From NCBI RefSeq assembly GCF_012163145.1, contig NZ_JAAVTX010000010.1:1-64000 (forward strand): a stretch of DNA of 64,000 bases, given 5' to 3'. Made by a program: the position numbers and the translations under genes. Within the stretch, counting starts at the first letter, position 1. Each line of letters opens with the position of its first letter. Below, piece after piece: positions 1,426 to 62,127 of the stretch. The notes under the pieces were generated by a model that did not search any database, was not told the DNA's origin, and saw nothing but the letters and a program-made list of their open reading frames with translations. The DNA is from Falsiroseomonas frigidaquae (GTDB lineage: Bacteria; Pseudomonadota; Alphaproteobacteria; Acetobacterales; Acetobacteraceae).

Positions 1426-1530
1426 GGCGCCAAAGTGCAACGTGGTGGTGGCATACCAAGCCCCTCCTTGCAAAAAGATCAAAACGGGTGTTTGAACGTT
1501 TGCTTGTTTAGCCAACGACCGGAGTGCCGC

Positions 1531-2049
1531 GTGTTCCGCAGTCCTCACCACCCCTTTCGTGTGGGCCTCCTGGCCCTTGCCTCTGCCTTCGCGCTCGACC
1601 AGGGCACCAAGTGGTGGATCGCCGAGGTGGTGATGCAGCCGCCCCGGACGATACCGATAGTCCCGTTTTTCAACCTGACCTTCCACCGCAACACGGGCGT
1701 GAGCTTCGGCCTCTTCGCCGGTTTCGGCGAGGCCGGCCGGTGGGCGCTCGTGGCCGTCGCCCTCGCGGTTGTAGCCATGCTGTGCGTGTGGATGGCCCGC
1801 GCGGAGCGGGCCTGGGTCGGAGTCGCTCTTGGCCTCGTTGCCGGCGGCGCGATCAGCAACGTCGTAGACCGGCTGCGGCACGGGGGCGTGACCGACTTTC
1901 TCGATTTCTATTACGCCGGCTGGCACTGGCCGAGCTTCAACCTCGCCGATGCGGCCATCTGCGTCGGCGTCGCCCTGCTGCTTCTGGACGGGTTTCTCGG
2001 GGAGCGGCGAAAGGAAACGGCAGGGATTGCGGACGGAAGGCAGCCTTGA
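1531..2049 (+). CDS. lspA: Lipoprotein signal peptidase (signal peptidase II), PbrC-like
   Basis: Integral membrane aspartyl protease that removes the signal peptide from diacylglyceryl-prolipoproteins; 172 residues with four predicted membrane helices. Conserved FHRNTGVSFG lies at residues 51-60. The catalytic aspartates are D122 (TDFLDFY) and D140 (FNLADAA), matching the spacing of the E. coli pair. GTG 1531 is chosen because it follows GGAG by about seven bases and gives the family length; a longer reading from 1435 adds non-family sequence. It sits 54 bp upstream of the arsR-ATPase-uppP genes. In pbr lead-resistance operons a signal peptidase II (PbrC) is coupled to the same partners, so a metal-resistance role rather than the housekeeping one is likely. 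Confidence 0.92.
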   Translation: MFRSPHHPFRVGLLALASAFALDQGTKWWIAEVVMQPPRTIPIVPFFNLTFHRNTGVSFGLFAGFGEAGRWALVAVALAVVAMLCVWMARAERAWVGVALGLVAGGAISNVVDRLRHGGVTDFLDFYYAGWHWPSFNLADAAICVGVALLLLDGFLGERRKETAGIADGRQP

Positions 2050-2103: not shown

Positions 2104-2460
2104 ATGGACGAGCCGTCACTCACCGACGAGCAGGCGCAGGAGCTCGCCGAGGTGTTTCGCATGCTGGGCGACCCGAACCGGCTGCGCATCGCCTTGGCCT
2201 GCCTCGGCAATCCGCGGTGCGTCGGCGACGTGTCCGAGCGGGTGGGGCTCTCGCACGCCCTCGTCAGCCATCACCTGCGCGTGCTGAAGGCGGCGCGGTT
2301 TCTGACCGCCCGCAAGCGCGGCAAGCAGGTCTTCTACGTGGCGTCCGACGACCGGGTCCGCTGCGTGATCCGCGACATGGTGGGCCACGTCGCCGAGCCT
2401 GGCGGCGGGGAGCCCATGAGTGCGGCCGAGGTCGAGGAGGAGGGAAGTGATGGACGGTGA
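2104..2460 (+). CDS. ArsR/SmtB-family metal-sensing repressor
   Basis: A 118-residue winged-helix repressor. Residues about 10-80 form the ArsR fold, with a recognition helix around GLSHALVSHHLRVLKAA. Such repressors leave DNA when they bind Zn, Cd, Pb or As. Candidate ligands are one Cys in the recognition-helix region (NPRCVGDV) and a C-terminal helix with Cys, Asp and His (VRCVIRDMVGH). ATG 2104 is preferred over the adjacent TTG 2101. The gene ends inside the start of the ATPase gene (11-bp overlap), so the two are almost certainly co-transcribed and the regulator controls the pump. Canonical pbr operons use a MerR-type PbrR here instead. Confidence 0.9.
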   Translation: MDEPSLTDEQAQELAEVFRMLGDPNRLRIALACLGNPRCVGDVSERVGLSHALVSHHLRVLKAARFLTARKRGKQVFYVASDDRVRCVIRDMVGHVAEPGGGEPMSAAEVEEEGSDGR

Positions 2461-5400
2461 TCGACGCGGCGCCGCCGGTGCCGGCCGGGCGGGTGCGCCC
2501 CTGCGCTTCCGGATCGAGGGCCTCGACTGCCAGAACGAGGTCAGGGCTCTGAAGGGCGCCGTCGGGCCGCTCGTCGGCGGCGAGGACGGCCTGGCCTTTG
2601 ACACACGGGCCGGCCTCATGAGCGTGACCGCGCCGGGTAGCACGTCGGCCGAGGCGATCGCGCGCGCGGTCGCCGGCACCGGCATGCGGGCTGAGCTGCT
2701 GCTGGACGACGTTGCGCCCGCCTCCAAGGCCCGCCCCGCCACGCCAGAGCCGGAGCCGCTGGTCTTCCAGGTCAGGGGCCTCGACTGCCAGAACGAGGTC
2801 CGGGCGCTGCGGCAGGCGGTGGGACCGCTGGTTGGCGGCGACGACCGGCTTTGGTTCGACACCGCCAAGGGCATCATGACTGTTGCGCCGGTGCATCCCG
2901 TCCCGGCGGCCGCCGTCGTCGAAGCGGTGGCGAGGACGGGGATGAGCGCCATGGCGCGGGTCGGCGCTCCCGGGTCACCGGCGCTGCTCCTGCGGGTGCG
3001 GGGGCTCGACTGCAAGAACGAGGTGGCGCTGCTGGAGCGCGCGCTCGGGCCGCTGGTGGGCGGCACGCATGCGCTCGCCTTCGACACCGGGCGTGGCGCG
3101 GTGACCGTCGTCGGCGGGCCGCGTAATGGCGATGAGCACGACCTCCTGGCGGCGATCCGCGAAGCCGGCATGGACGCCGAGCCGTGGGAGATGACGGCGC
3201 CGTCCGCAGACCCGGCCACGGCCGCACTCCGGCTCTTCCGCGTCGAGGGCCTCGACTGCCAGAACGAGGTCGCGGCACTGCGGCGCGAGGTCGGCCCTAT
3301 GGTGGGCGGTCCCGAGCGGCTGCTCTTCGACCCCGCAAAGGGGCTGATGGCCGTGACGGCGGCGGGCTCGGCCACGGGGCCGGAGATCGAGACGGCGGTC
3401 GCGCGCACCGGCATGCGCGCCACGGCCTGGCATGCCGGTCCTGAGGGACCCTCCCCGCAGCTCTTCCGGGTGGCGGGCCTCGATTGCAAAAATGAGGCGG
3501 CGGCCCTGACGCAGGCGGTCGGCCCCGTGGTCGGCGGCGCCGAGGCGCTGGCCTTCGACACGGGCCGCGGTGCGATGATTATCGCACCTGCTCCCGGCCG
3601 CGCCCTGTCGGTCGAGGCAATCCGGGACGCGGTGGCGCGCACCGGCATGCGTGCCGAGCCGTGGTCCGAGGCGGCTGAGCCGGCGGCCCCGGACGCCTGC
3701 GGCTTGGGGTGTGGGGGTGATGTTGCCGCGGCTCTCGCCCCGCCACTGCCGACGCATGCGCCGGACGCCGTGGTCTTCAAGGTGCACGGGCTGGACTGCG
3801 GTGACGAGGTGGCAGCGCTGAAGCGTGAGGTCGGGCCGGTTGTCGGCGCCGAGGACCGCCTCTCCTTCGACCTGCTCAACGGGCGCATGGCGATCACCGG
3901 TGCGGTGTCGCCGGAGCTCGCCGACCGAATCGAGAAGGCCGTCGCCCGCACCGGCATGCGCGCCGAGCCCTGGCAGGAGGGGGAGCAGACCGCCGCAGGT
4001 GCCGCGGAGGATCGGCGCCGGCGCGTCCAGACCTGGCTCACCATCGCAAGCGGCGTACTGGCCGTGGCCGGCGTCGCGCTGCACGCCTGGCTGGGCGGCG
4101 GCCTCGCTGCGGCGCTCGGTGCCGAGGAGGGTGGCGGCGGCACGCCCTTGCCGGCGATCCTCGCCTACGCGGCCGCCATCGCCTGCGCCGTGCGCTATGT
4201 GGCGCCGAAGGCCTGGCTTTCCGCCCGCCGCCTGCGGCCCGACATGAACCTGCTGATGGTCGTCGCGGTGGCCGGTGCCGTCGGCATCGGCGAATGGTTC
4301 GAGGCCGCGATCGTCTCCTTCTTCTTCGCCCTCGCCCTGGCCCTTGAGGCATGGAGTCTCGGCCGGGCTCGGCGAGCCGTCGCCGCCCTGATGGAGCTCG
4401 CCCCGGCCACGGCCCGGGTCCTGATGCCGGGCGGTACCGAGCGCGAGGTGCCGGCCGCCGAGGTGGCCGTCGGCGCGCGCGTCCTGATTCGGCCCGGCGA
4501 CAAGATCCCGCTCGACGGCCGCGTTGCCGCGGGCGAGAGCGAGGTTAACCAGGCGCCCATCACCGGGGAGAGCGTGCCCGTCCACAAGGCACCGGGCGCC
4601 GAGGTGTTCGCCGGCACCATCAACGGCGACGGGGCGCTCGAAGTCGAGACCACCAAGGCGGCGCGCGACACCACGCTGGCGCAGATCATTCGCATGGTCG
4701 GCTCGGCACAGGGCCGCCGGGCGCCGAGCGAGCAGTGGGTCGAGCGCTTCGCCCGCGTCTACACGCCGGCGGTCATGGTGCTCGCGCTCGCGGTATTCCT
4801 CGTCCCGCCGCTGCTCCTTGGGGGGGCGTGGGACATCTGGTTCTACCGCGCGCTGGTGCTGCTGGTGATCGCCTGCCCCTGCGCGCTCGTCATCTCGACC
4901 CCGGTGACCATCGTCGCGGCGCTGGCCGGCGCTGCGAAGCAGGGCGTGCTGGTGAAGGGCGGGCTGCACCTGGAGACGCCCGCCAAGATCCGCGCGATGG
5001 CCATGGACAAGACCGGGACGCTCACCGAGGGCCGGCCACGGGTAGTGGCCCTCGCCCCGCTCGGCGGCCGCGACGAGGCGGCGTTGCTCGGGCTCGCCGC
5101 GGCGCTCGAGGCGCGCAGCGAGCACCCGCTGGCCAAGGCGATCCTGGATCGCGCCGCGGAAGCAGGCGTTGCCGTCGCCCCGGCAGAGGCGGTGCAGGCA
5201 GTGCCCGGCAAGGGTCTGACGGGCCGCGTCGGGGGCCGGTCCGCCTGGCTTGGCTCGCGGCGCTTCCTGGAGGAGCGCGGGCTGGCCACGCCCGAGGCGC
5301 TCCGCCGCGCCGAGGAACTGGCGAGCGCCGGGCGCACCGTTGTCGCCGTCGGCGACGAGGCGGGCGTCTGGGGCCTGGTCGCGGTGGCGGACACCCTGCG

Positions 5401-6004
5401 CCCGGGCGCGCGGCAGACGATCGCCGCGCTGCACGCCGCCGGCATCGAGCGGGTGGTCATGCTGACCGGCGACAACCGCGCCACGGCGGAGGCGATCGCG
5501 CGCGAGACGGGCGTGGACGAAGTGCGCGCCGAGCTGCTGCCGGCCGACAAGGTGGCGGCGGTCGAGGATCTGGTGGCGCGGTACGGCGCGGTGGCGATGG
5601 TGGGCGACGGCGTGAACGACGCGCCGGCCATGGCACGGGCCAATCTTGGCATCGCCATGGGCGCGATCGGCAGCGACGCGGCGATCGAGACGGCGGACGT
5701 CGCGCTGATGTCGGACGACATCGCCAAGCTGCCCTGGCTGGTGCGGCACTCGCGCGCGACGCTGCGCGTCATCCGGCAGAACATCGGCTTCTCCGTCGCA
5801 GTCAAGCTGCTCTTTACCGGGCTGACGGTGGCGGGCCTCGCCTCCCTCTGGGGGGCGATCGCGGCCGATGTCGGGGCGTCGCTGCTCGTCGTGTTGAACG
5901 GGCTCCGCCTGCTGGGCGGGGGCGAGACGACGGCCGCGCCTCCGTCGGCGGCGCCACCGGCGCCGGCAGGCACCGGTCGGCCGGCGCTCGCGGCCCAGGG
6001 CTGA
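2450..6004 (+). CDS. Zn/Cd/Pb-translocating P1B-type ATPase with six tandem N-terminal HMA-like domains
   Basis: ATP-driven exporter of Zn, Cd or Pb in the inner membrane, 1184 residues (family about 700-800). The extra length is six repeats of about 75-85 residues. Each has a GLDC-x-x-E motif with a single Cys (residues 27, 113, 188, 270, 346, 450) in place of GMTCxxC: CQNE, CQNE, CKNE, CQNE, CKNE, CGDE. The pump core follows from about residue 530: CPC in TM6 (C809, C811), phosphorylated D853 in [17 protein letters not shown] and GDGVNDAP. The final membrane segments carry the Lys and Asp typical of the Zn/Cd/Pb subgroup (AVKLLFTG, ADVGASLLVVLNGLRLL). ATG 2450 follows GGAGGAGGGAAG and overlaps arsR. 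Confidence 0.95.
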   Translation: MDGDRRGAAGAGRAGAPLRFRIEGLDCQNEVRALKGAVGPLVGGEDGLAFDTRAGLMSVTAPGSTSAEAIARAVAGTGMRAELLLDDVAPASKARPATPEPEPLVFQVRGLDCQNEVRALRQAVGPLVGGDDRLWFDTAKGIMTVAPVHPVPAAAVVEAVARTGMSAMARVGAPGSPALLLRVRGLDCKNEVALLERALGPLVGGTHALAFDTGRGAVTVVGGPRNGDEHDLLAAIREAGMDAEPWEMTAPSADPATAALRLFRVEGLDCQNEVAALRREVGPMVGGPERLLFDPAKGLMAVTAAGSATGPEIETAVARTGMRATAWHAGPEGPSPQLFRVAGLDCKNEAAALTQAVGPVVGGAEALAFDTGRGAMIIAPAPGRALSVEAIRDAVARTGMRAEPWSEAAEPAAPDACGLGCGGDVAAALAPPLPTHAPDAVVFKVHGLDCGDEVAALKREVGPVVGAEDRLSFDLLNGRMAITGAVSPELADRIEKAVARTGMRAEPWQEGEQTAAGAAEDRRRRVQTWLTIASGVLAVAGVALHAWLGGGLAAALGAEEGGGGTPLPAILAYAAAIACAVRYVAPKAWLSARRLRPDMNLLMVVAVAGAVGIGEWFEAAIVSFFFALALALEAWSLGRARRAVAALMELAPATARVLMPGGTEREVPAAEVAVGARVLIRPGDKIPLDGRVAAGESEVNQAPITGESVPVHKAPGAEVFAGTINGDGALEVETTKAARDTTLAQIIRMVGSAQGRRAPSEQWVERFARVYTPAVMVLALAVFLVPPLLLGGAWDIWFYRALVLLVIACPCALVISTPVTIVAALAGAAKQGVLVKGGLHLETPAKIRAMAMDKTGTLTEGRPRVVALAPLGGRDEAALLGLAAALEARSEHPLAKAILDRAAEAGVAVAPAEAVQAVPGKGLTGRVGGRSAWLGSRRFLEERGLATPEALRRAEELASAGRTVVAVGDEAGVWGLVAVADTLRPGARQTIAALHAAGIERVVMLTGDNRATAEAIARETGVDEVRAELLPADKVAAVEDLVARYGAVAMVGDGVNDAPAMARANLGIAMGAIGSDAAIETADVALMSDDIAKLPWLVRHSRATLRVIRQNIGFSVAVKLLFTGLTVAGLASLWGAIAADVGASLLVVLNGLRLLGGGETTAAPPSAAPPAPAGTGRPALAAQG
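2500..3980 (+). repeat. Six tandem coding repeats (HMA-like metal-binding domains)
   Basis: In-frame repeats whose Cys codons lie at 2528, 2786, 3011, 3257, 3485 and 3797, a period of 225-312 bp. Shared protein pattern: F-x-V-x-G-L-D-C-x-N-E-V-x-A-L, then GPLVGG, F-D-T, and a terminal ARTGMRAE block. Unit 6 differs most (CGDE, FDLLNGRMAI) and resembles the single DCGEEV-type domain usual for this ATPase group. Units 1-5 therefore look like internal amplifications. Between units 5 and 6 lies a short insert containing DACGLGCGGD. Confidence 0.9.
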
Positions 6005-6013
6005 CCGGGCGCC

Positions 6014-6829
6014 GTGGCGGTTGGGACTGACTGGGCGCTTGCCGCGCTGCTGGGAGCCGTCGAGGGGGTAACCGAGTTCCTGCCGGTCTCCTCGACGGGC
6101 CACCTGATCTTGCTGGTGGACCTGTTGGGCTTCCGCGGGCCACCCGGCCGGGTCTTCGAGATCGCCATCCAACTCGGTGCCATCCTCGCAGTGTGCTGGG
6201 TCTACCGGGCACGCCTGCTCGGCACCGCTGCCGCTCTGCCGCGCGACCCGGCGGCGCAGCGGTTCGCGGCCGCGGTGGCGCTGGCCTTCCTACCGGCCGC
6301 CGTGGTCGGCGCCTTGGCGCACGGGACCATCAAGGGCGTGCTTTTCTCGCCTTGGATTGTCGCCGCGGCGCTCATCGTGGGTGGCGTCGCCATCCTGGTG
6401 GTGGAGCGGGTGCGGCCGCAGCCTCGGGTGTACGAGGCGGAGGCGGTCGGGCTCCGGACGGCCCTGGCGATCGGCGCGTTCCAGGTGCTGGCGATGGTCC
6501 CCGGCGTGTCGCGCTCCGGCGCTACGATCCTTGGTGCGCTGCTGCTGCGGGTGGATCGCCCGGCGGCCGCCGAGTTCTCCTTTTTCCTGGCGATCCCGAC
6601 CATGCTCGGGGCCACGGCCTTCGACCTCTACAAGAACCGCGCGGCGCTGGATGGCGAAGGGAGCGCGCTGATCGCCGTCGGCTTCGCCGCAGCGTTCGCC
6701 ACGGCGCTCGTGGTCGTGCGGTGGCTCGTCGCCTTCGTCGGGCGGCACGGCTTCGCGCCCTTCGCCTGGTACCGCATCGCGCTCGGCGCGGCGATGCTTG
6801 CCGTCCTCTCAATCGCCGCGCCGGCCTAG
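6014..6829 (+). CDS. uppP: Undecaprenyl-diphosphatase (UppP/BacA), PbrB-like
   Basis: Integral membrane phosphatase that converts undecaprenyl diphosphate to the monophosphate carrier lipid, releasing phosphate on the outer face of the membrane. 271 residues. EGVTEFLPVSSTGH places E17, E21, S27 and H30 exactly as in E. coli UppP, and the second motif PGVSRSGATI supplies the catalytic Arg. GTG 6014 begins nine bases after the ATPase stop, so the genes are co-transcribed. In C. metallidurans the equivalent PbrB is thought to supply phosphate that precipitates exported Pb2+; the same role is inferred here. A broken second copy of the 3' end lies at 47775-48013. Confidence 0.93.
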   Translation: MAVGTDWALAALLGAVEGVTEFLPVSSTGHLILLVDLLGFRGPPGRVFEIAIQLGAILAVCWVYRARLLGTAAALPRDPAAQRFAAAVALAFLPAAVVGALAHGTIKGVLFSPWIVAAALIVGGVAILVVERVRPQPRVYEAEAVGLRTALAIGAFQVLAMVPGVSRSGATILGALLLRVDRPAAAEFSFFLAIPTMLGATAFDLYKNRAALDGEGSALIAVGFAAAFATALVVVRWLVAFVGRHGFAPFAWYRIALGAAMLAVLSIAAPA

Positions 6830-6849: not shown

Positions 6850-7755
6850 ATGACGTCACGCAGACCGGTCGTGGATGGCTTTTACGACGAGGGCACCGGG
6901 AGCGTTGCCTATATTGTGGCGGACCCCGAGACGGCGCGGTGTGCCATCATCGATCCGGTGCTCGGGTTCGACCGCGATTCCGGCGCCACCGATACCCGCT
7001 TTGCGGACGAGATTGCCGACCACGTCCGGGCGCGGGGCCTGACCGTGGAGTGGGTGCTCGATACCCACCCGCACGCCGACCACCTGTCCGGTGTGGCCTA
7101 TCTGGGCGACCGCCTGGGCGCACCGACCGGCATCGGCGAGCGCGTCGCCGCGGTGCAGGGGATCTGGGCGGACATCTACCACCTGCCGGAGCTGCAAGCA
7201 GAGGGCCGCCGCTACTGGGACCGTCTGTTCGCCGAGAGTGACCGCTTCCGGGTTGGCGGGCTGGAGGTCGAGGTGATCTTCTCCCCAGGCCACACGGCGG
7301 CCTCCGTCACCTACCTCGTCGGGGACGCCGCCTTCATCCACGATACCCTGTTCATGCCGGACGCCGGCACGGCGCGGGCCGATTTTCCCGGTGGTGACGC
7401 GCGGGCGCTGTACCGCAGCATCCAACGAATTCTCGCGCTGGAGCCGCAGACGCGCCTCTTCACCGGCCACGACTACCGCCCGGGCGGGCGCGCGGCACGC
7501 TGGGAGGCGACCGTGGCCGAGCAGCGGGCACGCAACGTCCACCTCCGCGACGGCGTCGGCGAGGAGGAGTTCGTGCGCCTGCGCAAGGAGCGCGACCGGA
7601 CACTGCCCCTGCCCGGGCTGATGCTCGCCGCGCTGCAGGTCAACCTCCGCGGCGGCCGCCTGCCGGAGCCCGAGGCGAACGGCACCTCCTACCTCAAGCT
7701 GCCGCTGAACCGCTTTGGTCCGGCAGCCCCGGAGCCGCGCCTTGATGCGGAGTGA
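6850..7755 (+). CDS. MBL-fold metallo-hydrolase (persulfide dioxygenase/glyoxalase II-like), copy 1
   Basis: A 301-residue metallo-beta-lactamase-fold protein. The metal site THPHADHL gives H73, H75, D77 and H78; further ligands are in SPGHTAAS, FMPDAGTARADFPGG and TGHDYRPGG. This arrangement resembles the persulfide dioxygenase (ETHE1/Blh) and glyoxalase II branches, which act on glutathione persulfide or thioesters; substrate not provable. ATG 6850 follows GGAGGAGAG, 20 bp after uppP, so it is the last gene of the operon. A same-length copy sits at 48034-48939, also behind uppP sequence. Confidence 0.85.
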   Translation: MTSRRPVVDGFYDEGTGSVAYIVADPETARCAIIDPVLGFDRDSGATDTRFADEIADHVRARGLTVEWVLDTHPHADHLSGVAYLGDRLGAPTGIGERVAAVQGIWADIYHLPELQAEGRRYWDRLFAESDRFRVGGLEVEVIFSPGHTAASVTYLVGDAAFIHDTLFMPDAGTARADFPGGDARALYRSIQRILALEPQTRLFTGHDYRPGGRAARWEATVAEQRARNVHLRDGVGEEEFVRLRKERDRTLPLPGLMLAALQVNLRGGRLPEPEANGTSYLKLPLNRFGPAAPEPRLDAE

Positions 7756-10210: not shown

Positions 10211-10593
10211 TGCGCTTGATCGGGATCATGGCGGCCCTGGCTGCGGGCGCTGTCGACCAGGCCACCAAGGTATGGGCGCTTTCCGCTCTCTGGCCGCCCT
10301 ACAGCGGGGGCATCACGGTGCTGCCCGTGCTGAACCTGCGGCTCGGCTTCAACACCGGCGTGACCTTCGGCATGTTCGCCGACAGCGCAGCCGGCGCCGC
10401 CTGGGTCCTGGTGCTGGTCACCCTCGCCATCACCGCGTTCCTGCTGCACTGGCTCTGGCGCACGACATCAAGAGTGGAGGCCCTGGCGCTTGGCCTGATC
10501 ATCGGCGGCGCCCTCGGCAATGCCGTCGACCGGCTACGCATCGGAGCAGTCGTTGACTTCCTCGACGCGCATTACGCGGGCTGGCACTGGCGT
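10210..10593 (+). pseudogene. lspA: Truncated second signal peptidase II gene
   Basis: Encodes the first about 128 residues of a signal peptidase II: NTGVTFGMF, then ALGNAVDRLRIGAVVDFLD with the first catalytic Asp. After YAGWHW the sequence leaves the family, just before the FNxAD segment that carries the second catalytic Asp, so it should be inactive as a protease. The reading frame stays open to 10887 but with Arg/His-rich out-of-frame sequence. It begins at an ATGA overlap with ccdA. The junction at about 10585-10595 joins a fragment of an unrelated membrane-protein gene. Confidence 0.8.
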
Positions 10594-15177: not shown

Positions 15178-16146
15178 CTACTCGGCTGTGGCCGCGCCGC
15201 AGTTCTGTCCGTCCTCCGGCTGGAGGCTCCAGAGGAAGTCGCAGGCGCGCTGGGCATGTGCCGCAGCCACAAAGATGAAGCGCTTGTCGCTGGCCAGCAC
15301 GCGGAGCCAGGAGCCGATGTAGGCGGTGCTGTCCTCGCGCAGGTCGTGGTCGATGCCGAGCGAGGCGCAGGTGAAGGCCGCCGTGAGCTCCGCCAGAATC
15401 TCCTCCACCGCCCGCGCCTCCTCGCTGTGCCGGCGGGTGATGGTCTCCCGGTTCAGCCGCGACGGGTGGCCGGTCCAGTGGCCCATCTCATGCGCCAGCG
15501 TCGCGTAGTAGGCCTCCGGATAGATGAAGTCGCCGATCGCCGGCATGCGGATGTAGTCGAGGTTGGGGGTGTAGAAGGCCCGTTGCCCGCCCGGCCGGAT
15601 GTCGGCGCCGGTGCTGGCGAAGAACCGCTCCGCCGCCTCGATCCGCTGCACCGGTGCGGCCTCGGCCGGGTTGCTGGCCGGGTGGAAGCGCTCCGGCAGG
15701 CCGTCGATCTGGCAGGCGTTGAACACGGCATAGCTCTTGAGGAACCAGATGCGGCGCTCCTCCTCCTCGCCGTCCGGCGTCTCCTCCACCCGGCGCAGCG
15801 TGTCGCTGTAGGTGACGGTGGTCGCCTTCTCGCCGCGTCGGACCTGTCCGCCGAGTTCCTGCGCCTGTCGGTAGGTCATGAAGTAGGGGGAGGTGTAGCC
15901 GTGGGCGCACATGGCCATCCAGAGCACCAGGGTGTTGATGCCGCGGTAGGGCTGGCCGGTGTGGCGGAGGGGGAGGCAGGCAGCGGCGGTGCGCCAGGGG
16001 CGGCGCCAGGGCTTCAGGCCAAGTTCTAGCTCGGCGAGGATGGCGTCGGTGACGGTCTGATAAAGGTCGGTGCGCCCGGTGTCCCCACACCCCGTGTTGC
16101 TGGTCTTGGTGCTGGCCGTGGTCGGCTTGGTGCTGGTCTTCCTCAT
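15178..16146 (-). CDS. ardC: ArdC-like antirestriction / zincin metallopeptidase-domain protein
   Basis: 322 residues. The N-terminal ArdC domain (about 25-150) includes LKPWRRPW, YRGINTLVLW and SPYFMTYRQAQELGGQVRRGEKA. The C-terminal zincin domain has LAHEMGHWTGH, with the HExxH zinc motif, and the downstream EEILAELTAAF helix. ArdC proteins of conjugative plasmids bind DNA and protect incoming DNA from host restriction. ATG 16146 has GAGGAGAGACC upstream; a longer reading to 16467 lacks family sequence. Its presence supports a plasmid or integrative-element origin for this DNA. Confidence 0.88.
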   Translation of the reverse strand: MRKTSTKPTTASTKTSNTGCGDTGRTDLYQTVTDAILAELELGLKPWRRPWRTAAACLPLRHTGQPYRGINTLVLWMAMCAHGYTSPYFMTYRQAQELGGQVRRGEKATTVTYSDTLRRVEETPDGEEEERRIWFLKSYAVFNACQIDGLPERFHPASNPAEAAPVQRIEAAERFFASTGADIRPGGQRAFYTPNLDYIRMPAIGDFIYPEAYYATLAHEMGHWTGHPSRLNRETITRRHSEEARAVEEILAELTAAFTCASLGIDHDLREDSTAYIGSWLRVLASDKRFIFVAAAHAQRACDFLWSLQPEDGQNCGAATAE

Positions 16147-16835
16147 CTGGTCTCTCCTCGAAAAGCGACAGCTTTTCGGGGGCGAGGCCCGCGCCAGTGA
16201 GCGGAGGGAGGGGGTCCAGGTCAGCGGGGCCGGAGGGGTATCTCCCGGCATTCTGCTCTGAATGTCGGGGACACCGGCCCGGCTGCCCGCAGGGTCGCCT
16301 GGACGCCCGGGAGGCCGCAGGCCTCCAAGACACGGTCGCGTCCGCGGCCAAAGGCCGGCACTGCCGACGGGCCGGCAGGACATACGGATCAGGCACGGCG
16401 GCAGCAGCGAAAGCATGTTCCCTATACGTTCGAGTCCCTGCGTGATCGCTGGATGCCGCCGCGCCACCTCCCCGCACCGCCTCGACCATTCAACCTGGAG
16501 ACCGCCGGCGCGACGGCTCCAGCAGGTTGGTTAAGTCGGGGGGCCAGCGAGGGAGGTCTGGACGGGGCGGAGGCGATGGCGGCGGTGCGCGCAATGCATT
16601 CGGCCTGGCCGCTGAATCTGGCCCGTGAGGTGGCGGCGCGCCGGCTCAACCGCTCCCTCGCCAAGGAGGCGGCTCTTCCCCAGCGCTGGCAAACCCCACC
16701 CGCGGCCCTGCTCCGCCCCCTCGCCGCGCCGGCTCTCCACGATTCCGCACCAAGCGCGCGGCATGCATCGGTTCACGCCGGCGTCGGACCGGCGCCACCA
16801 AGTCCTGAGCAAGCGACTGGCACAGGCTCGCCGGC
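16147..16835. other. 689-bp stretch without a recognised gene
   Basis: Upstream of ardC. An ORF on the plus strand at 16453-16839 (128 codons) overlaps the next gene by ATGA and has a helical, charged middle part (EAMAAVRAMHSAWPLNLAREVAARRLNRSLAKEA), but no family is recognised. Its Pro-rich ends look like untranslated GC-rich DNA. The region upstream of ardC probably contains that gene's promoter, which is not distinct. Confidence 0.4.
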
Positions 16836-24079: not shown

Positions 24080-26566
24080 ATGAAGCGTCCGCACAATACC
24101 CAGGCATCCCACGACCACTCCTACCATGTCCCTCAAGGCATCACCCCGGCGCATGGCCAAGCGGAGACGCAGGCCCGCGCGATCGGCGCGCATGGCCAGA
24201 CTGACCCGCGCGCCCACCAGCACGGTCCCGGGGCCGCGCACCACGCCGACCCACTCGCGCCCGACGCCGCAGTGCTGGTTGAAGATCCAGTCTGCCACAT
24301 GCGGGTGAACCCGCACGAGACGCCGCATCGCACCGAGCACAAGGGGCGGACCTTCTACTTCTGCACCGCGCGCTGCAGGGAGAAGTTCGTCGCGGAGCCG
24401 GTGCGCTTCCTCTCACCCAAGGAGCGCGAGGCGCCGCCGGTGCCCGAAGGGTCGATCTACACCTGCCCCATGCACCCCGAAGTGCGCCAGGTCGGCCCTG
24501 GCGCCTGCCCGATCTGCGGCATGGCCCTCGAGCCCGAAGTGGTCACGGCAGAGGAGGCCGAAAACCCCGAGCTGCGCGACTTCACCCGTCGCTTCTGGGT
24601 TGGCTTGGCGCTGACCCTACCGGTGCTAGCCCTAGAAATGGGCGGGCACCTCCTTGGGCTTGACCATCTGATCGAGCGCCGCACTTCTAACTGGCTCCAG
24701 TTCGCCTTCGCGACACCGGTGGTCCTCTGGGCGGGGTGGCCCTTCTTCGTTCGTGGCTGGCGGTCCGTCGTCAACCGCAACCTCAACATGTTTACCTTGA
24801 TCGCGATGGGGGTAGGCGCGGCCTTCCTCTTCAGCCTTATCGCGACGTTGGCGCCCAGCGTCTTCCCGGCAGCCTTTCGCGGCTCGGACGGATCGGTCGC
24901 GGTCTACTTCGAGGCGGCGGCGGTGATCGTCGTCCTCGTGTTGCTCGGCCAGGTGCTCGAGTTGCGCGCGCGCGAGCGCACCTCGGGGGCGATCCGAGCC
25001 CTGCTCAACCTCGCCCCTGCGACGGCGCGGCGGCTCCGCGAGGACGGCTCCGACGAAGAGGTGCCCCTGGCGGAGGTGCGGGTCAGCGACCGCCTGCGCG
25101 TGCGCCCCGGCGACAAGGTGCCGCTCGATGGCGAGGTCCTCGAGGGCCGCAGCAACGTGGACGAGAGCATGGTCACGGGCGAGCCGATGCCGGTGACGAA
25201 GGAGCCTGGTACGCGGGTGATCGGCGGCACCCTTAACGGCCAGGGGTCCTTCATCCTGCGTGCAGATGCGGTCGGGCGCGACACCATGCTCTCGCGCATT
25301 GTCGAGATGGTGGCCCGCGCGCAGCGGTCGCGCGCGCCAATCCAGCGGCTGGTCGATCTCGTCGCGGCCTGGTTCGTCCCGGCCGCAATCGGCGTCGCCG
25401 TCCTCGCCTTCATTGCATGGTCCGTCTGGGGCCCGGACCCGCGAATGGCCTACGCCATGGTGGCGGCCGTGACGGTGCTGATCATTGCCTGCCCCTGCGC
25501 CCTTGGCCTCGCCACGCCGATGTCGATCATGGTGGGCGTGGGCCGCGGCGCCCAAGCCGGCGTACTGGTCAAGGATGCCAAGGCGCTGGAGCGGCTGGAG
25601 AAGATCGACACGCTGGTGGTGGACAAGACTGGCACCCTGACTGAGGGGCGGCCGAGCGTGACCGCAATCCGTCCTGCTCCTGGCTTCGCCGAAGAAGAGC
25701 TGCTCCGCTTCGCCGCTGCGCTGGAGCGCCCGAGCCAGCATCCACTCGCCGAGGCGGTGGTCCGAGCCGCGGAGGAACGCGGCTTGGCGCCCCTACCCGA
25801 GGTGCACGGCTTCGACGCTCCGACCGGGCGCGGCGTCACCGGGGAAGTGGAGGGGCGGCGCATAGCCCTCGGCAATGCCCGCCTCATGGCCGATCTTGGC
25901 GTGGATCCCGGACCACTAGCCGAAGCCGCAGAGGCACTGCGGCGCGAGGGAGCAACCGCTTTCTTCGCGGCCGTGGATGGCAGGCCGGCCGGCGTCCTCG
26001 GCATCGCTGACCCGATCAAAGCAACAACCCTGGAAGCCATCCACACGCTCCGGGGCGAGGGGGTTCGGGTGGTGATGCTGACAGGCGACAATCGCACCAC
26101 CGCTGAGGCGGTGGCGCGCTCCCTCGGCATCGACGAGGTCGTGGCCGAGGTGCTGCCGGAGGACAAGGCCGCGGCTGTCGAGCGACTGCAGCGCGAGGGC
26201 CGCATTGTGGCCATGGCCGGCGATGGAGTGAACGACGCCCCGGCACTCGCCGCGGCCGACGTCGGCATTGCGATGGGCACGGGCACCGATGTCGCAATCG
26301 AGAGCGCCGGTGTGACGCTGCTCCGCGGTGACCTGACCGGCATTGTCCGGGCGCGGCGGCTCTCGCGCGCCACGATGCGTAACATCCGCCAAAACCTCTT
26401 TCTCGCCTTCGTCTACAACGGCGTGAGCATTCCGGTGGCAGCGGGGTTACTCTACCCGTTCTTTGGCATTCTGCTCTCGCCGGTGATCGCCGCGGCGGCG
26501 ATGGCGCTCTCTTCGGTCAGCGTCGTCGCCAACGCGCTCAGGCTACGCGCGGTGCGGATTGGATGA
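24080..26566 (+). CDS. copA: Copper-translocating P1B-type ATPase with YHS domain
   Basis: 828-residue Cu(I)-exporting ATPase. Order: a His-rich N-terminus (ten His in the first 60 residues), a YHS domain ([21 protein letters not shown], about 66-110), a heavy-metal-binding domain YTCPMHPEV with CPICGMAL (about 127-155), then the pump. CPC is C471/C473, the phosphorylated residue D515 in DKTGTLTEG, with SQHP, TGDN and GDGVNDAP. The last helices ([28 protein letters not shown]) carry the Asn and Met-Ser-Ser of the Cu(I) class. GMTCxxC domains are absent, unlike the second CopA at 49907. ATG 24080 follows GGGAGG. Confidence 0.93.
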
Positions 26567-29311: not shown

Positions 29312-30178
29312 CTACTTCCCGGCGAGCTTCTTGCCCAAGCTCAGCGCTACAGATTCTTGCTGTATCCCAAGAGGCTGCGCGCCGGGGGCACCTTGACGCC
29401 TCGCCCGCAGCATTAGCCAAATGCCGATGGCGACCATGGGCAGCGAAAGAAGCTGCCCCATGGTCGCCCCCGCGAAGAGGAAGCCAAGATACGCATCTGG
29501 CTGGCGGAAGAACTCGCCAATGATGCGCGCCACCCCATAGCCCGCAAGAAAGGCACCGGAGAGCAGACCCGGTCGCGCTCGCATCCAGGGGCGAGAGACG
29601 AGCCACATCAGCACCCCAAATAGCGCCAGCCCCTCCAGGCCGGCTTGGTAGAGCTGGCTCGGGTGCCGCGGCTCGGGGCCGGCGCCCGGGAAGACCATCG
29701 CCCAGGGCACGTCGCTGACACGGCCCCAGAGCTCCCCGTTCACAAAGTTGGCGAGGCGGCCAAAGAAGAGGCCGATTGGGACGACGCAGACGATGCGGTC
29801 TGCGAAGAAAAGGACGTCGAGCTTGCGGCTGTGCGCGAAGAGGAACAACGCGAGGATCACGCCCAGTGCCCCGCCGTGGAAGCTCATACCCCCTTGCCAG
29901 AGGTAGAGCGCTTCCCAGGGCGCGGTCAGATAGTATCCGGGCCGGTAAAAGAGCACGTAGCCGAACCGCCCGCCGAGGATGATGCCGAGCGTTGCCCAGG
30001 TGACAAAGTCCTCCACCTGCTCGGTCGTCGCGACCGTCGGGCGCCGCGCGACCAGCCGGCGCGCGAGCCACCAGCCGAGCAGGATGCCCGTAATGTAGGC
30101 CAGGGCGTACCAGCGGATAGCGATGGGCCCAACCTGGACCAGTACCGGGTCAATTATCGGGAATGGGAGGGCGAGCAT
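29312..30178 (-). CDS. lgt: Prolipoprotein diacylglyceryl transferase
   Basis: Inner-membrane enzyme that moves a diacylglyceryl group from phosphatidylglycerol to the lipobox Cys of prolipoproteins. 288 residues, seven helices. MSFHGGALG (essential His) and the Lgt signature GRLANFVNGELWGR with its essential Arg are present, as is GGRFGYVLFY. Start ATG 30178. It follows the TlpA gene by 34 bp in an operon. Together with lspA at 1531 the window encodes two of the three lipoprotein-processing enzymes, possibly for metal-resistance lipoproteins. Confidence 0.93.
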   Translation of the reverse strand: MLALPFPIIDPVLVQVGPIAIRWYALAYITGILLGWWLARRLVARRPTVATTEQVEDFVTWATLGIILGGRFGYVLFYRPGYYLTAPWEALYLWQGGMSFHGGALGVILALFLFAHSRKLDVLFFADRIVCVVPIGLFFGRLANFVNGELWGRVSDVPWAMVFPGAGPEPRHPSQLYQAGLEGLALFGVLMWLVSRPWMRARPGLLSGAFLAGYGVARIIGEFFRQPDAYLGFLFAGATMGQLLSLPMVAIGIWLMLRARRQGAPGAQPLGIQQESVALSLGKKLAGK

Positions 30179-30212
30179 GTGGTTTCCTACGCGGTGGAGG
30201 AGGCAGGTACGT

Positions 30213-30842
30213 TCATGGACGTGACGGCGCCGCCGTCATCGCGCGCCGGATCAGCTCGATCATCTCCGAGCTGTCCCACTCCAGCGGGCCGATAGCCCGG
30301 CCGATCTCGCGGCCATTGCGGTCGATGAGCAGCGTCGTTGGAATGCCGACGACGCCCAGCGCGCGGCTGGATGTGTTTGGGCGATCAAGGTAAACGGCGA
30401 GGTTCGCGATCCCGATTTGGTCGTAGAAGGCGCGTACTGGGTTGACACCGCCGCGGTCGATCGAGAGCGCCACGATTTCGAAATCGGGGCCGCCCAGCTC
30501 AGCCTGCAGCCGGTCCAGGGCGGGCATCTCCTCGCGACAGGGCACGCACCACGTCGCCCAGATGTTCAGCAGGACGGTCCTGCCCCGGAAGTCCGCTGGG
30601 CTGAGCAGTCTGCCCTCCGCGTCTGTGAACGCAAGGTCGGGAACCGGCACGGGTCTCTCACGCATCACCATGCCGCGCGACGGTTGCGGCGCAGCGCCCG
30701 GCACAACGCTAGCTGGCGGCGCCGGCTTGCCGAGCGGGACCGCCCACAAGGCAAGGCCCGCAGCGAGCCCGGCCAGGGATAGCAAGCTCAGGGACAGGAC
30801 TAGGAGGCCGCGCCGTTCGGGAGGGAAACGGTGGCTGGTCAT
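30213..30842 (-). CDS. TlpA-like thiol:disulfide oxidoreductase, copy 1
   Basis: 209 residues. N-terminal membrane anchor (LLVLSLSLLSLAGLAAGLAL) then a periplasmic thioredoxin fold with WCVPC (C99, C102) in [19 protein letters not shown] and the cis-Pro loop [14 protein letters not shown]. Such proteins reduce periplasmic disulfides, including copper-site cysteines of cytochrome oxidase and SCO. Very similar to the copy at 52700 ([31 protein letters not shown]). Upstream of lgt in the same operon. Confidence 0.9.
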   Translation of the reverse strand: MTSHRFPPERRGLLVLSLSLLSLAGLAAGLALWAVPLGKPAPPASVVPGAAPQPSRGMVMRERPVPVPDLAFTDAEGRLLSPADFRGRTVLLNIWATWCVPCREEMPALDRLQAELGGPDFEIVALSIDRGGVNPVRAFYDQIGIANLAVYLDRPNTSSRALGVVGIPTTLLIDRNGREIGRAIGPLEWDSSEMIELIRRAMTAAPSRP

Positions 30843-49906: not shown

Positions 49907-52486
<2,580 letters not shown>

Positions 52487-52518
52487 GAGCTTTCTCCGCG
52501 GTTTGGATCGTCGGACCT

Positions 52519-52549
52519 GAGGTGGTGATTCCCACCATGGTAAGGTCAA
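52519..52549 (-). promoter_or_regulatory. Putative copA promoter with CueR operator
   Basis: Reading toward copA: -35 TTGACC (52549-52544), then the near-dyad CCTTACCATGGTGGGAA (52545-52529), very close to the CueR site pattern of TTGACC followed by CCATGATGGGAAGG. With a 19-base spacer the -10 is CACCTC (52524-52519), weak as expected for an activator-dependent promoter. CueR from the downstream gene would act here. Confidence 0.7.
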
Positions 52550-52699
52550 GGCGGCCGGCCTGCCGGCCCGGATTCGGGTGCCGGAGGTGGAAGCGTCGGG
52601 CGGCACCACGAGGTTTCGCGGTGCCGGTCCCTGACCTGCCTGCCGCTCTTCCAGCGCTGCGCTCACCCTGCCCTCTTCACCGCCGTTGCCCTGCTCGCC

Positions 52700-59978: not shown

Positions 59979-60890
59979 CTATGAGAGACTTGGCCCGTGT
60001 TCTGGCCTGGCCGGCTGGCCCTGCCGGAGCGGAGCGTAGTCGGGGCCAGCCGGCCAGGGCAACACCGCTTCCGGCGCCGGCGGCCGATAGCCCAGCGCGC
60101 TGTGCGGCCTGACCGTGTTGTAGTGGCGCCGCCAGCGCTCGATCAGCACCTCAGCTTCCCGCAGCGAATAGAAGATCTCTCGGTCCAGCAGCTCGTCCCG
60201 CAGCTTGCCGTTGAAGCTCTCGTTGTAGCCGTTCTCCCAGGGGCTGCCGGGCTCGATGAACAGCGTCGTCACCCCGACCCGGCCGAGCCAGCTGCACACC
60301 ACCTTCGCCACGAACTCCGGCCCGTTGTCGGAGCGGATGTGCCCAGGCGGCCCACGTTCGACAAACAGATCCGTCAGCACCTGCAGCACGTCGTCCGACG
60401 TCAGCCGCCGCGCCACCACGATCGCCAGGCACTCCCGCGTGTATTCGTCGATCACCGTCAGCATGCGAAAGCGCCGCCCGTCATGCGTCCGGTCCTGCAC
60501 GAAGTCATACGCCCAGACATGCCCCGGCCAGCACGGCCGCAGCCGAACGCAGGAGCCGTCGTTCAGCCACAGTCGGCCCCGCTTCGGCTGCCGCCGCGGC
60601 ACCTTCAGCCCCTCGCGCCGCCAGATGCGCTCCACGCGCTTGGCGTTTACACGCCAGCCCTCGGCCCGCAGCAGCGCCGTGATCCGGCGATAGCCGTAGC
60701 GGCCGTACTTCGCCGCAAGCGACACCACCGCATCGGTCAGTGCAGTCTCATCGGCCGACACCGCCCGCACCTTGCGCTGCGTCGATCGCGGCTGGCCCAG
60801 CGTGCGGCAGGCGCGGCGCTCGGAAACCCCGAGCACCGACTGCACATGCCGCACCCCGACCCGGCGGCGCTCGGGGCCTAGAAGTTTCCC
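59979..60890 (-). CDS. IS3 transposase OrfB (DDE catalytic part)
   Basis: Read as a fusion with OrfA through a -1 frameshift. OrfB has [21 protein letters not shown], the HTH_21-like block, and the rve/DDE core: first Asp in [15 protein letters not shown], second in [12 protein letters not shown], Glu in [22 protein letters not shown], then the [17 protein letters not shown] end. It encodes the catalytic integrase-like domain needed for transposition. The C-terminal tail is short and Arg/Pro-rich. Confidence 0.88.
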
Positions 60891-61159
60891 TCCGCGGCTT
60901 CTTTCAGAATCTGCTTGTCGAGCGTCAGCTCCGCCACCGCCCGCTTCAGCCGCGCATTCTCGCGCTCGAGCTCCTTCAGCCGACGCGCCTGGTCCACCTT
61001 CAGCCCGCCGTACTCTGATCGCCACCGATAGAAGCTCGCCTCCGAGACCGCGAGCCGGCGGCAGATCTCCCCCACCGTCTGGCCCTGCGCCAACTCCACC
61101 TCAGCCTGCCGCAGCAGCGCGATGATCTGCTCCGCCGTACGACGCTTCCTCGGCATCAC
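60878..61159 (-). CDS. IS3 transposase OrfA (DNA-binding part)
   Basis: 93 residues: [22 protein letters not shown], helix-turn-helix [23 protein letters not shown], then a leucine-zipper region ([22 protein letters not shown]). Just before its stop, the codons GAG GGA AAC contain the slippery heptamer G-GGA-AAC (60890-60884). A -1 slip there enters the OrfB frame, which is the normal IS3 mechanism for making the OrfAB transposase. Confidence 0.9.
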
Positions 61160-61222
61160 TGCCTCCTTCCAAGGAAGCCAACTCTCTCATCACAGCTGGA
61201 TCCCAGGCAGGGGGGAAGGTCA

Positions 61223-62127
61223 CCCCTGCTCTACGGGGTGATGCTGACGGCGCTCGACGCCTTCCTGATCCTATGGTTGCAGAACAAGGGCGTACGCTGG
61301 CTTGAGGCATTGGTCTTTGGGTTGATCGCGCTGATCTTTGGCTGCTTCGCGGTGCAGATCGCGCTTTCGCAGCCGGAATGGGCGGCGGTCCTGAACGGCT
61401 ACATCCCGGCCGCCTCGATCGTGACGAACCAGACGCAGCTCTACATTGCGATGGGAATCCTGGGTGCGACGGTGATGCCGCACAACCTGTATCTCCATAC
61501 TGCCGTGGTGCAGTCGCGCGCCTGGAAGACCGATGAAGCGGGCAAGCGCGAGGCGATCAAGTTCGCGACCATCGACAGCTCCATCGCTCTGACGCTGGCG
61601 CTGTTCATCAACTCCGCCATCCTGATCACCGCGGCCGCCACCTTCAACACCACGGGCAATACCGAGGTCGCAGAGATCGGCGACGCCTACCACCTGATCG
61701 CGCCGCTGCTCGGCAGCGGCTTGGCCGCAACCCTGTTCGCCCTGGCGCTGCTGTTCTGCGGGCTGAACGCCACGGTGACTGCGACGCTGGCCGGCCAGGT
61801 GGTGATGGAGGGCTTCCTGCGCTTCCGGCTGCACCCGGTGCTGCGCCGGCTCGTCACCCGGCTGGTGGCGATCGTGCCGGCGATCCTGGTCACCTGGTTC
61901 TACGGCACCAGCGGAACGGCGCAGCTGCTGATCCTGAGCCAGGTCATCCTCTCCATCCAGCTGCCCTTCGCGGTGATCCCGCTGATGCTCTTCGCGCAGG
62001 ACAAGCGGAGGCTCGGGGTCTTCGTCGCGCCGACCTGGCAGCTGGTGCTGGGCTGGGCTGGGCAACGGCCGCGGTGATCCTCGGGCTGAACATGAAGCTG
62101 CTGTACGACGCAGCCTTCGGGGAGTGA
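61223..62127 (+). pseudogene. mntH: Nramp (MntH-like) Mn/Fe transporter, truncated and frameshifted
   Basis: Begins abruptly at the IS3 end with LLYGVMLTALDAFLIL, so helices 1-3 and the first metal-binding Asp-Pro-Gly block are absent. The rest is a good Nramp: TVMPHNLYLHTAVVQSR, AATLFALALLFCGLNATVTATLAGQ. Near the 3' end CTGGG occurs three times in a row (62048-62062) where two copies keep the frame. This 5-bp expansion moves the frame from the proper end (ATAAVILGLNMKLLYDAAFGE, stop 62127) to a stop at 62077. The gene is dead. Confidence 0.88.

Follow-up and report, generated by a model that had tools for sequence, protein, structure and literature searches.

Which role six tandem metal-binding domains may have on a bacterial pump for divalent heavy metals is the question raised by a locus of Falsiroseomonas frigidaquae (Acetobacteraceae, Alphaproteobacteria). 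The locus is located on a stretch of 64,000 nucleotides, positions 1 to 64,000 of the forward strand of contig NZ_JAAVTX010000010.1 (assembly GCF_012163145.1), which is referred to here as the window. It contains a gene for a P1B-type ATPase that starts with an array of six repeated units, followed by the pump core (Table 1). An excerpt of a 2024 paper assigns one or two metal-binding domains to prokaryotic P1B pumps and describes the role of such domains as still debated (PMC11970713). It is considered rather probable that the window pump is an exporter for Zn2+, Cd2+, or Pb2+ with an array that captures, buffers, and senses the divalent metal.

Exactly six G-L-D-C-x-x-E motifs were present in the open reading frame (ORF), with the cysteine residues at positions 27, 113, 188, 270, 346, and 450 and, in this order, the forms CQNE, CQNE, CKNE, CQNE, CKNE, and CGDE. 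The pairwise identity of the units was between 40% and 58%, the shuffle z-scores of all 15 pairs were between 12 and 20, and the array was also visible in the DNA as a six-copy direct repeat. The order strand-helix-strand-strand-helix-strand was found in all six units in a full-length model, which was too weak for domain contacts (mean predicted local distance difference test value [pLDDT] of 66.7, predicted template modeling score [pTM] of 0.38). Unit 4, folded alone with 33 aligned units, reached a pLDDT of 90.7, and its model matched HMA domains. A preliminary description of this DNA, made from the letters alone, had proposed six tandem HMA-like domains in the range 2450 to 4010 that fold like HMA domains, five of them with CQNE or CKNE and the last with CGDE, and all of this was confirmed. 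The Pfam HMA model (PF00403), nevertheless, reported only unit 6 of the window protein; 12 of the 33 array units scanned with it reached an E-value of 0.1 (best, 9.2e-4) and 21 did not. The CxxC metal site of the classical HMA domain was absent from all six window units, which carry CxxE instead. The units are a variant of the HMA fold and not classical HMA members.

A complete P1B core follows 3' of the array. In the alignment with SsZntA (PDB 4umv), a ZntA/CadA-type P1B-2 pump, the pump core, the CPC motif, the lysine residue, and the Asp-x-Gly motif were the same as in the window pump, and the DKTGT phosphorylation motif was also present, so that the earlier assignment to the Zn/Cd/Pb ATPases holds. 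The protein scored 599 bits with the NCBIfam model TIGR01525 (cutoff, 346) and 508.5 bits with the cadmium family model TIGR01512 (cutoff, 313.5). Other scores weigh against a simple assignment. The NCBIfam ZntA equivalogs stayed below their cutoffs (NF008262, 539 of 1,005 bits; NF033775, 465 of 1,240 bits), the copper subfamily model TIGR01511 was reached exactly at its cutoff of 397 bits, which is below the score of the cadmium model, and among the PDB sequences the core best matched a cadmium-named ATPase, 7qbz (E-value, 7.5e-121), which has SPC at the position of CPC and which we take to be a P1B-4 ATPase. Since the ZntA equivalog scores were not reached, the pump was not classed as ZntA proper; judged by its sequence, it is of the P1B-2 type but more distant, and transport of Zn, Cd, or Pb is predicted.

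Human ATP7A and ATP7B likewise possess six tandem HMA-fold domains in front of a P1B core, the last of them beside the membrane, as stated in a passage of PMC10654040. The window array might, by this likeness, be a copper(I)-type array for the docking of chaperones. The same number and fold of units, the best PDB sequence-profile matches of the array units, which were CopZ and ATP7B domains, and the copper model reached at cutoff speak for this explanation. ATP7A and ATP7B, however, handle Cu(I) with CxxC sites and a copper pump core, whereas the window pump has CxxE units and the P1B-2 lysine and Asp-x-Gly; neither the CxxC units nor the P1B-1 membrane residues of ATP7A/B-like pumps were found in it. 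A single cysteine with aspartate or glutamate is a poor Cu(I) site, and a separate ATPase with two HMA domains, presumably CopA-like, is encoded elsewhere in the window (49910 to 52666). A copper array is therefore regarded as extremely improbable.

The residues of the metal site were tallied in 86 distinct array units and 44 proximal units, classed by their position in the protein. Among 473 profile hits, 310 duplicates, 19 hits from decayed, fragmentary, or unrelated loci, 10 units that were short or contained X, and 4 units under 40 bits had been dropped; the profile was built from units picked by the GLDCxNE motif and may miss very divergent ones. The array units kept Asp in 83, Cys in 84, Asn in 85, and Glu in 84 cases, with a variable residue following the cysteine. 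The proximal units kept Asp in 43 and Cys and Glu in all 44 cases, with Asp or Glu at the position of the asparagine. The site with one cysteine and one glutamate that had been proposed before stands with respect to these two residues, but the asparagine ahead of the glutamate, which had been omitted, is conserved to the same degree as the cysteine, and the aspartate is conserved, too. By this tally, the array site is best written as D-C-x-N-E and the proximal site of the family as D-C-[GAV]-[DE]-E. Exceptions that weaken the case for a general metal site are two array units without cysteine (unit 3 of L026 and unit 2 of L108) and array units without the aspartate or glutamate in three further loci (L037, L094, and L109).

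A C-x(1-3)-C pair, which the preliminary description had not noted, was present in the linker ahead of the proximal unit in 17 of 21 array-bearing proteins and a pair with other spacing in 2 more; the linkers of the remaining two (L024 and L036) contained no cysteine, which argues against a general role of this pair. In 13 of 19 single-unit relatives, the unit was preceded by a CC pair, although some of the stretches used for this count may extend 5' of the true gene start.

The motif D-C-x-N-E joins the D-C of ZntA-type sites to the C-x-x-E of plant HMA2/HMA4. The ligands are Asp/Cys/Cys in ZntA and Cys/Cys/Glu in HMA4, and the plant pumps possess one such unit each. ZntA/CadA pumps have one N-terminal unit with a CxxC-type site, in contrast to the six units with D-C-x-N-E or D-C-G-D-E in the window. 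In the plant domain (PDB 2kkh), which also matches in fold, glutamate replaces the second cysteine of CxxC as in the window, but the plant site has two adjacent cysteines in one domain, whereas the window has Asp-Cys in a repeated form. Part of PMC3411818 reports binding of Zn and Cd by the CCxxE site of plant HMA2/HMA4.

The history of the array was read from a tree of the units, which comprised 75 columns and a bootstrap not fully settled, and from a tree of the pump cores. In the unit tree, proximal and array units were split with a support of 100/99. Units 1, 2, 3, 5, and 6 of the window grouped with the units of the same number in four relatives of the Roseomonas type, namely Falsiroseomonas tokyonensis, plasmids of Pararoseomonas and of Roseomonas mucosa, and Crenalkalicoccus, and unit 4 joined only unit 4 of F. 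tokyonensis and Pararoseomonas. Because most of the units pair by position across the relatives, the array was assembled before these lineages split. Recent internal amplification, as suggested by the preliminary description, was rejected because of this grouping and the low identity of the units. Units 3 and 5 were sister groups (99/96), which would fit an ancient duplication of a block of two units.

The core tree of 51 distinct rows placed 26 of 27 array-bearing rows into one clade (100/99). The single-unit CadA-like ATPases with C[AV]EE, which occur in Alphaproteobacteria and on one Methylomonas plasmid and lack the distal CxNE array, grouped with the proximal units and the array-bearing cores in the trees. 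The 27th core, from L024, grouped with ordinary CASC-type (CxxC) pumps (99/98). Its ATPase (L024:5001-8249) carries two CxNE units and, after them, three GMDCP[TS]C units, so an array would here have been combined with a pump of another kind, provided that the contig of this metagenome-assembled genome (MAG) was assembled correctly.

Comparison with the R. mucosa plasmid copy revealed a DNA identity of 90 to 93% in unit 1, of 69 to 77% from about position 2800 to 3850 (units 2 to 5 and the linker), and of 83 to 100% beyond. The identity 5' of unit 1 was uneven, with 77 to 91% in arsR and no match further upstream. The synonymous substitution rate (dS) was 0.21 in unit 1, 0.61 to 1.00 in units 2 to 5, 0.50 in unit 6, and 0.25 in the core. 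Since dS was raised in the inner block, the sequences point to an exchange of the inner units as a block between alleles rather than to a faster change of the protein. Compared to the Pararoseomonas copy, only the bin from 2800 to 2950 was low (68%), and the remaining bins reached 83 to 97%.

The ratio of nonsynonymous to synonymous substitution rates (dN/dS) weighs against a capturing and buffering array: it was 0.25 to 0.32 for units 1 to 5 together and 0.07 to 0.09 for the core, so that the array exceeded the core by a factor of about three to five. This ratio, the variation in copy number, the loss of motif residues in some units, and the recombined appearance of the array would agree with units that are dispensable spacers, generated by unequal crossing-over and drifting in number without a function. 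Such a drift should not have preserved the site residues in 83 to 85 of 86 units, a dN/dS below 0.4 in 21 of 24 single-unit comparisons, or the largely positional identity of the units across plasmids and species. Moreover, all array genes in one bacterial family, in which 9 of 75 genomes had a match, contained four units. Dispensable spacers are thus very improbable.

Related pumps with the proximal unit and between one and five distal ones were found in Alphaproteobacteria and on plasmids, four units being most common. A scan of genome contigs by exact peptide patterns, which finds close relatives only, yielded 18 loci. Counted with the profile, six units were present in F. tokyonensis, five in Consotaella, four in Martelella, Bradyrhizobium, Afipia, Rhodopseudomonas, Microvirga, and others, and three in Azospirillum; a Sphingomonas array had four units, one of them without cysteine. 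Matches were obtained in 156 of 72,556 plasmid records. Unit counts were taken from 10 of the 40 records listed: six units in Pararoseomonas and R. mucosa, four in Agrobacterium and Bosea, two in Sphingorhabdus and Novosphingobium, and one in four others. The Bosea frame of 585 amino acids has no DKTGT and no annotated gene and may be broken.

Six-unit homologues that are common and already described would have counted against the preliminary description, and this holds in part. Multi-unit homologues do recur, with six units in three loci besides the window (L009, L092, and L093), but they are sparse: in the sample of the class, at least 13 of 385 genomes had a unit match and at least 3 an array. 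In this sample and in those of the order and the phylum, no more than 14 or 15 candidates were scored per genome. A literature search, mostly at the title and abstract level, retrieved no description of the array or its motif. In the sample of the order, at least 6 of 396 genomes had a unit match, comprising three intact six-unit arrays including that of the window itself, the Crenalkalicoccus case, one decayed copy, and one fragment. At least 10 of 398 genomes matched in the sample of the phylum, with an array only in the window's own genome among the matches listed. In the family of 75 genomes mentioned above, which is that of one array genome, one genome had two four-unit genes and another an extra single-unit gene.

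Two candidates were rejected. Seven units in Crenalkalicoccus (L010/G036) were not accepted because the third unit runs into an undetermined residue and the start of this unit is duplicated letter for letter; this looks like an assembly seam, and the unit count there is uncertain. All four unit matches of G731:C162 have lost the Asp-Cys, but a new function was dismissed since this gene is decayed, with a truncated pump and an ORF between the unit remnants. The decayed copy of the operon in this contig (L102:84-4336) comprises arsR, a unit remnant, this ORF, which we take to be transposase-like, two units without cysteine, the truncated pump, and a uppP-like ORF. Separately, seven loci (L012 to L017 and L025) contain a four-unit operon inside more than 9.5 kb of DNA that is 98 to 100% identical to L012. 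The records concerned are named Martelella, Bradyrhizobium (three loci, two from one strain), Novosphingobium, Rhizobium, and a Proteobacteria MAG. The shared block may be a recently mobilized resistance element or, alternatively, partly a contamination.

How such an array may act on the pump can be outlined as follows. The cytoplasmic N terminus consists of five divergent HMA domains with D-C-x-N-E and, next to the pump, an HMA domain of a distinct kind. A single soft or borderline divalent metal ion is probably bound by each unit, with modest affinity, through the cysteine thiolate and the flanking carboxylates of Asp and Glu. The five distal units would hold and buffer metal near the pump and sense the load, a sensing or buffering role that the preliminary description had also suggested and that is plausible. 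The proximal unit, perhaps together with the linker cysteine pair, would hand the metal to the transmembrane CPC/Lys/Asp site or relieve an autoinhibition, and the core would export it. A report on Sinorhizobium meliloti weighs against an important contribution of the N terminus: in the part of PMC4932525 concerned, cells with a one-domain ZntA lacking its N terminus were only slightly zinc sensitive.

Alternatively, the array may be mainly an autoinhibitory sensor, with apo units that dock on the soluble domains of the pump until metal frees them, and with little metal handed on. Autoinhibition has been proposed for LpCopA and for domains 1 to 3 of ATP7B in excerpts of PMC11970713 and PMC10654040, and the difference of the distal units as a class from the proximal unit would agree with it. 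A specific docking surface is, however, a poor fit to one to five distal units within one core clade and to an array on a pump of another clade (L024), and the full-length model gave no reliable domain contacts for or against docking. This explanation is judged fairly unlikely. It is also conceivable, albeit unlikely, that the D-C-x-N-E array is a transplantable and recombining module with its own type of site, which can be joined to pumps of other clades and the inner units of which are swapped like cassettes; neighboring units would share metal between their single cysteines, and the load would be read as compaction of the chain.

The genes around the pump bear on the metal, which is exported according to the preferred reading of a capturing and buffering array. 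The gene order is lspA-arsR-ATPase-uppP followed by a gene for an MBL-fold hydrolase, and the ATG of the ATPase gene overlaps the 3' end of arsR. From order and overlap, we infer an operon lspA-arsR-ATPase-uppP.

Table 1. Features of the pump gene and its neighbors (positions in the window)
Feature	Position	Strand	Evidence or remark
lspA-like signal peptidase II ORF, true start uncertain	1435..2049	+	Pfam Peptidase_A8, E 1.6e-39 on the stretch from 1501; match in own genome, 1582-1995
ArsR/SmtB-family metalloregulator, end overlaps ATPase start	2104..2460	+	Pfam HTH_5, E 1.5e-10; NCBIfam HTH_metalloreg, 75.7 bits (cutoff, 55)
P1B-2-type heavy-metal ATPase ORF	2450..6004 including stop (coding, 2450-6001)	+	1184 amino acids; Pfam, NCBIfam, PDB alignment
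Unit 1, GLDCQNE	2498..2707	+	unit profile, 113.1 bits
Unit 2, GLDCQNE	2756..2959	+	unit profile, 111.4 bits
Unit 3, GLDCKNE	2981..3196	+	unit profile, 90.5 bits
Unit 4, GLDCQNE	3230..3439	+	unit profile, 108.2 bits; single-unit fold, pLDDT 90.7
Unit 5, GLDCKNE	3455..3676	+	unit profile, 105.3 bits
Low-confidence linker with Cys pair C417-x3-C421 (codons within 3698-3712)	3677..3769	+	pLDDT <50 at residues 407-439
Unit 6, membrane-proximal, GLDCGDE	3770..3985	+	unit profile, 90.2 bits; Pfam HMA
CPC motif C809-P810-C811, transmembrane metal site	4874..4882	+	aligned with CPC of SsZntA 4umv
DKTGT phosphorylation motif, D853	5006..5020	+	core alignment
Lys1119, P1B-2 counter-ion position	5804..5806	+	aligned with SsZntA; invariant in 13 sequences
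Asp1140-x-Gly, P1B-2 membrane ligand	5867..5875	+	aligned with SsZntA; D1140 and G1142 invariant in 13 sequences
uppP/bacA undecaprenyl-diphosphate phosphatase	6014..6829	+	Pfam BacA, E 1.9e-78; NCBIfam PRK00281, 357 bits (cutoff, 262)
MBL-fold hydrolase, start chosen by analyst	6850..7755	+	Pfam Lactamase_B

Of the 18 related loci, 15 had an LspA homologue in their flanks, 14 a UppP homologue (L010 as fragments only), and 16 at least one of the two; after the seven near-identical loci had been collapsed, LspA or UppP was present in 10 of 12. A homologue of the MBL-fold protein occurred in four loci (L009, L010, L011, and L024). A P1B pump beside genes for a UppP-type phosphatase (PbrB) and a signal peptidase (PbrC) is also known from the pbr operon with PbrA of Cupriavidus metallidurans, and the phosphatase was proposed to supply the phosphate that precipitates the exported lead, as outlined in portions of PMC3431237 and PMC8195591. 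By analogy, we infer a PbrB-like role for UppP; phosphate released by it would precipitate the exported metal, above all lead, in the way proposed for PbrA and PbrB, and derepression of the operon would fall to the ArsR protein. Several differences weigh against a lead operon. The pbr system has a MerR-family regulator, PbrR, and a PbrB/PbrC fusion, whereas the adjacent regulator in the window is of the ArsR/SmtB family, lspA and uppP are separate, and the array is added. An ArsR homologue was present in the flanks of only 7 of the 18 loci, and neither LspA nor UppP was found in those of L011 and L026. The locus is pbr-like in content but was not classed as a pbr operon because the regulator is ArsR and not MerR. 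Lead is a plausible substrate by analogy, with Zn and Cd being equally likely, and a specificity for lead is a guess since the regulator is of the ArsR type and its homologue is found in so few loci.

The remaining part of the contig is rich in metal genes, among them those for an RND pump, a multicopper oxidase, and two further P1B pumps. One P1B ATPase, at 24080 to 26563, has N-terminal YHS and HMBD heavy-metal domains. A further lspA (10237 to 10590) and an lgt gene (29315 to 30220), both for lipoprotein processing, lie among the metal genes, and three of the five lspA-type matches of the genome are on this 112-kb contig. At 59982 to 62074, an ORF with a transposase integrase core is located next to an Nramp ORF whose match to the Pfam model covers only positions 96 to 355; the Nramp transporter looks as if it was cut by an insertion. 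An ArdC-type antirestriction protein (15181 to 16494) on a contig with so many metal genes suggests a plasmid or an integrative element.

Some of the related proteins from plasmid records carry the annotation "heavy metal translocating P-type ATPase". For the six-unit ATPase of Pararoseomonas (L092:6913-9501), the public gene model begins inside the array, although the open frame reaches back to 5953 or further, so that domain counts in databases may be too low. Because Pfam misses many units and a public gene model starts within the array, this family of pumps may well have escaped notice. The usual example of a pump with multiple domains is human ATP7B. The pumps described here carry an array of up to six domains on a subclass and with a set of ligands other than those of the copper pumps, and the natural variation between one and five distal units within one core clade offers a copy-number series for tests of buffering, delivery, and autoinhibition.
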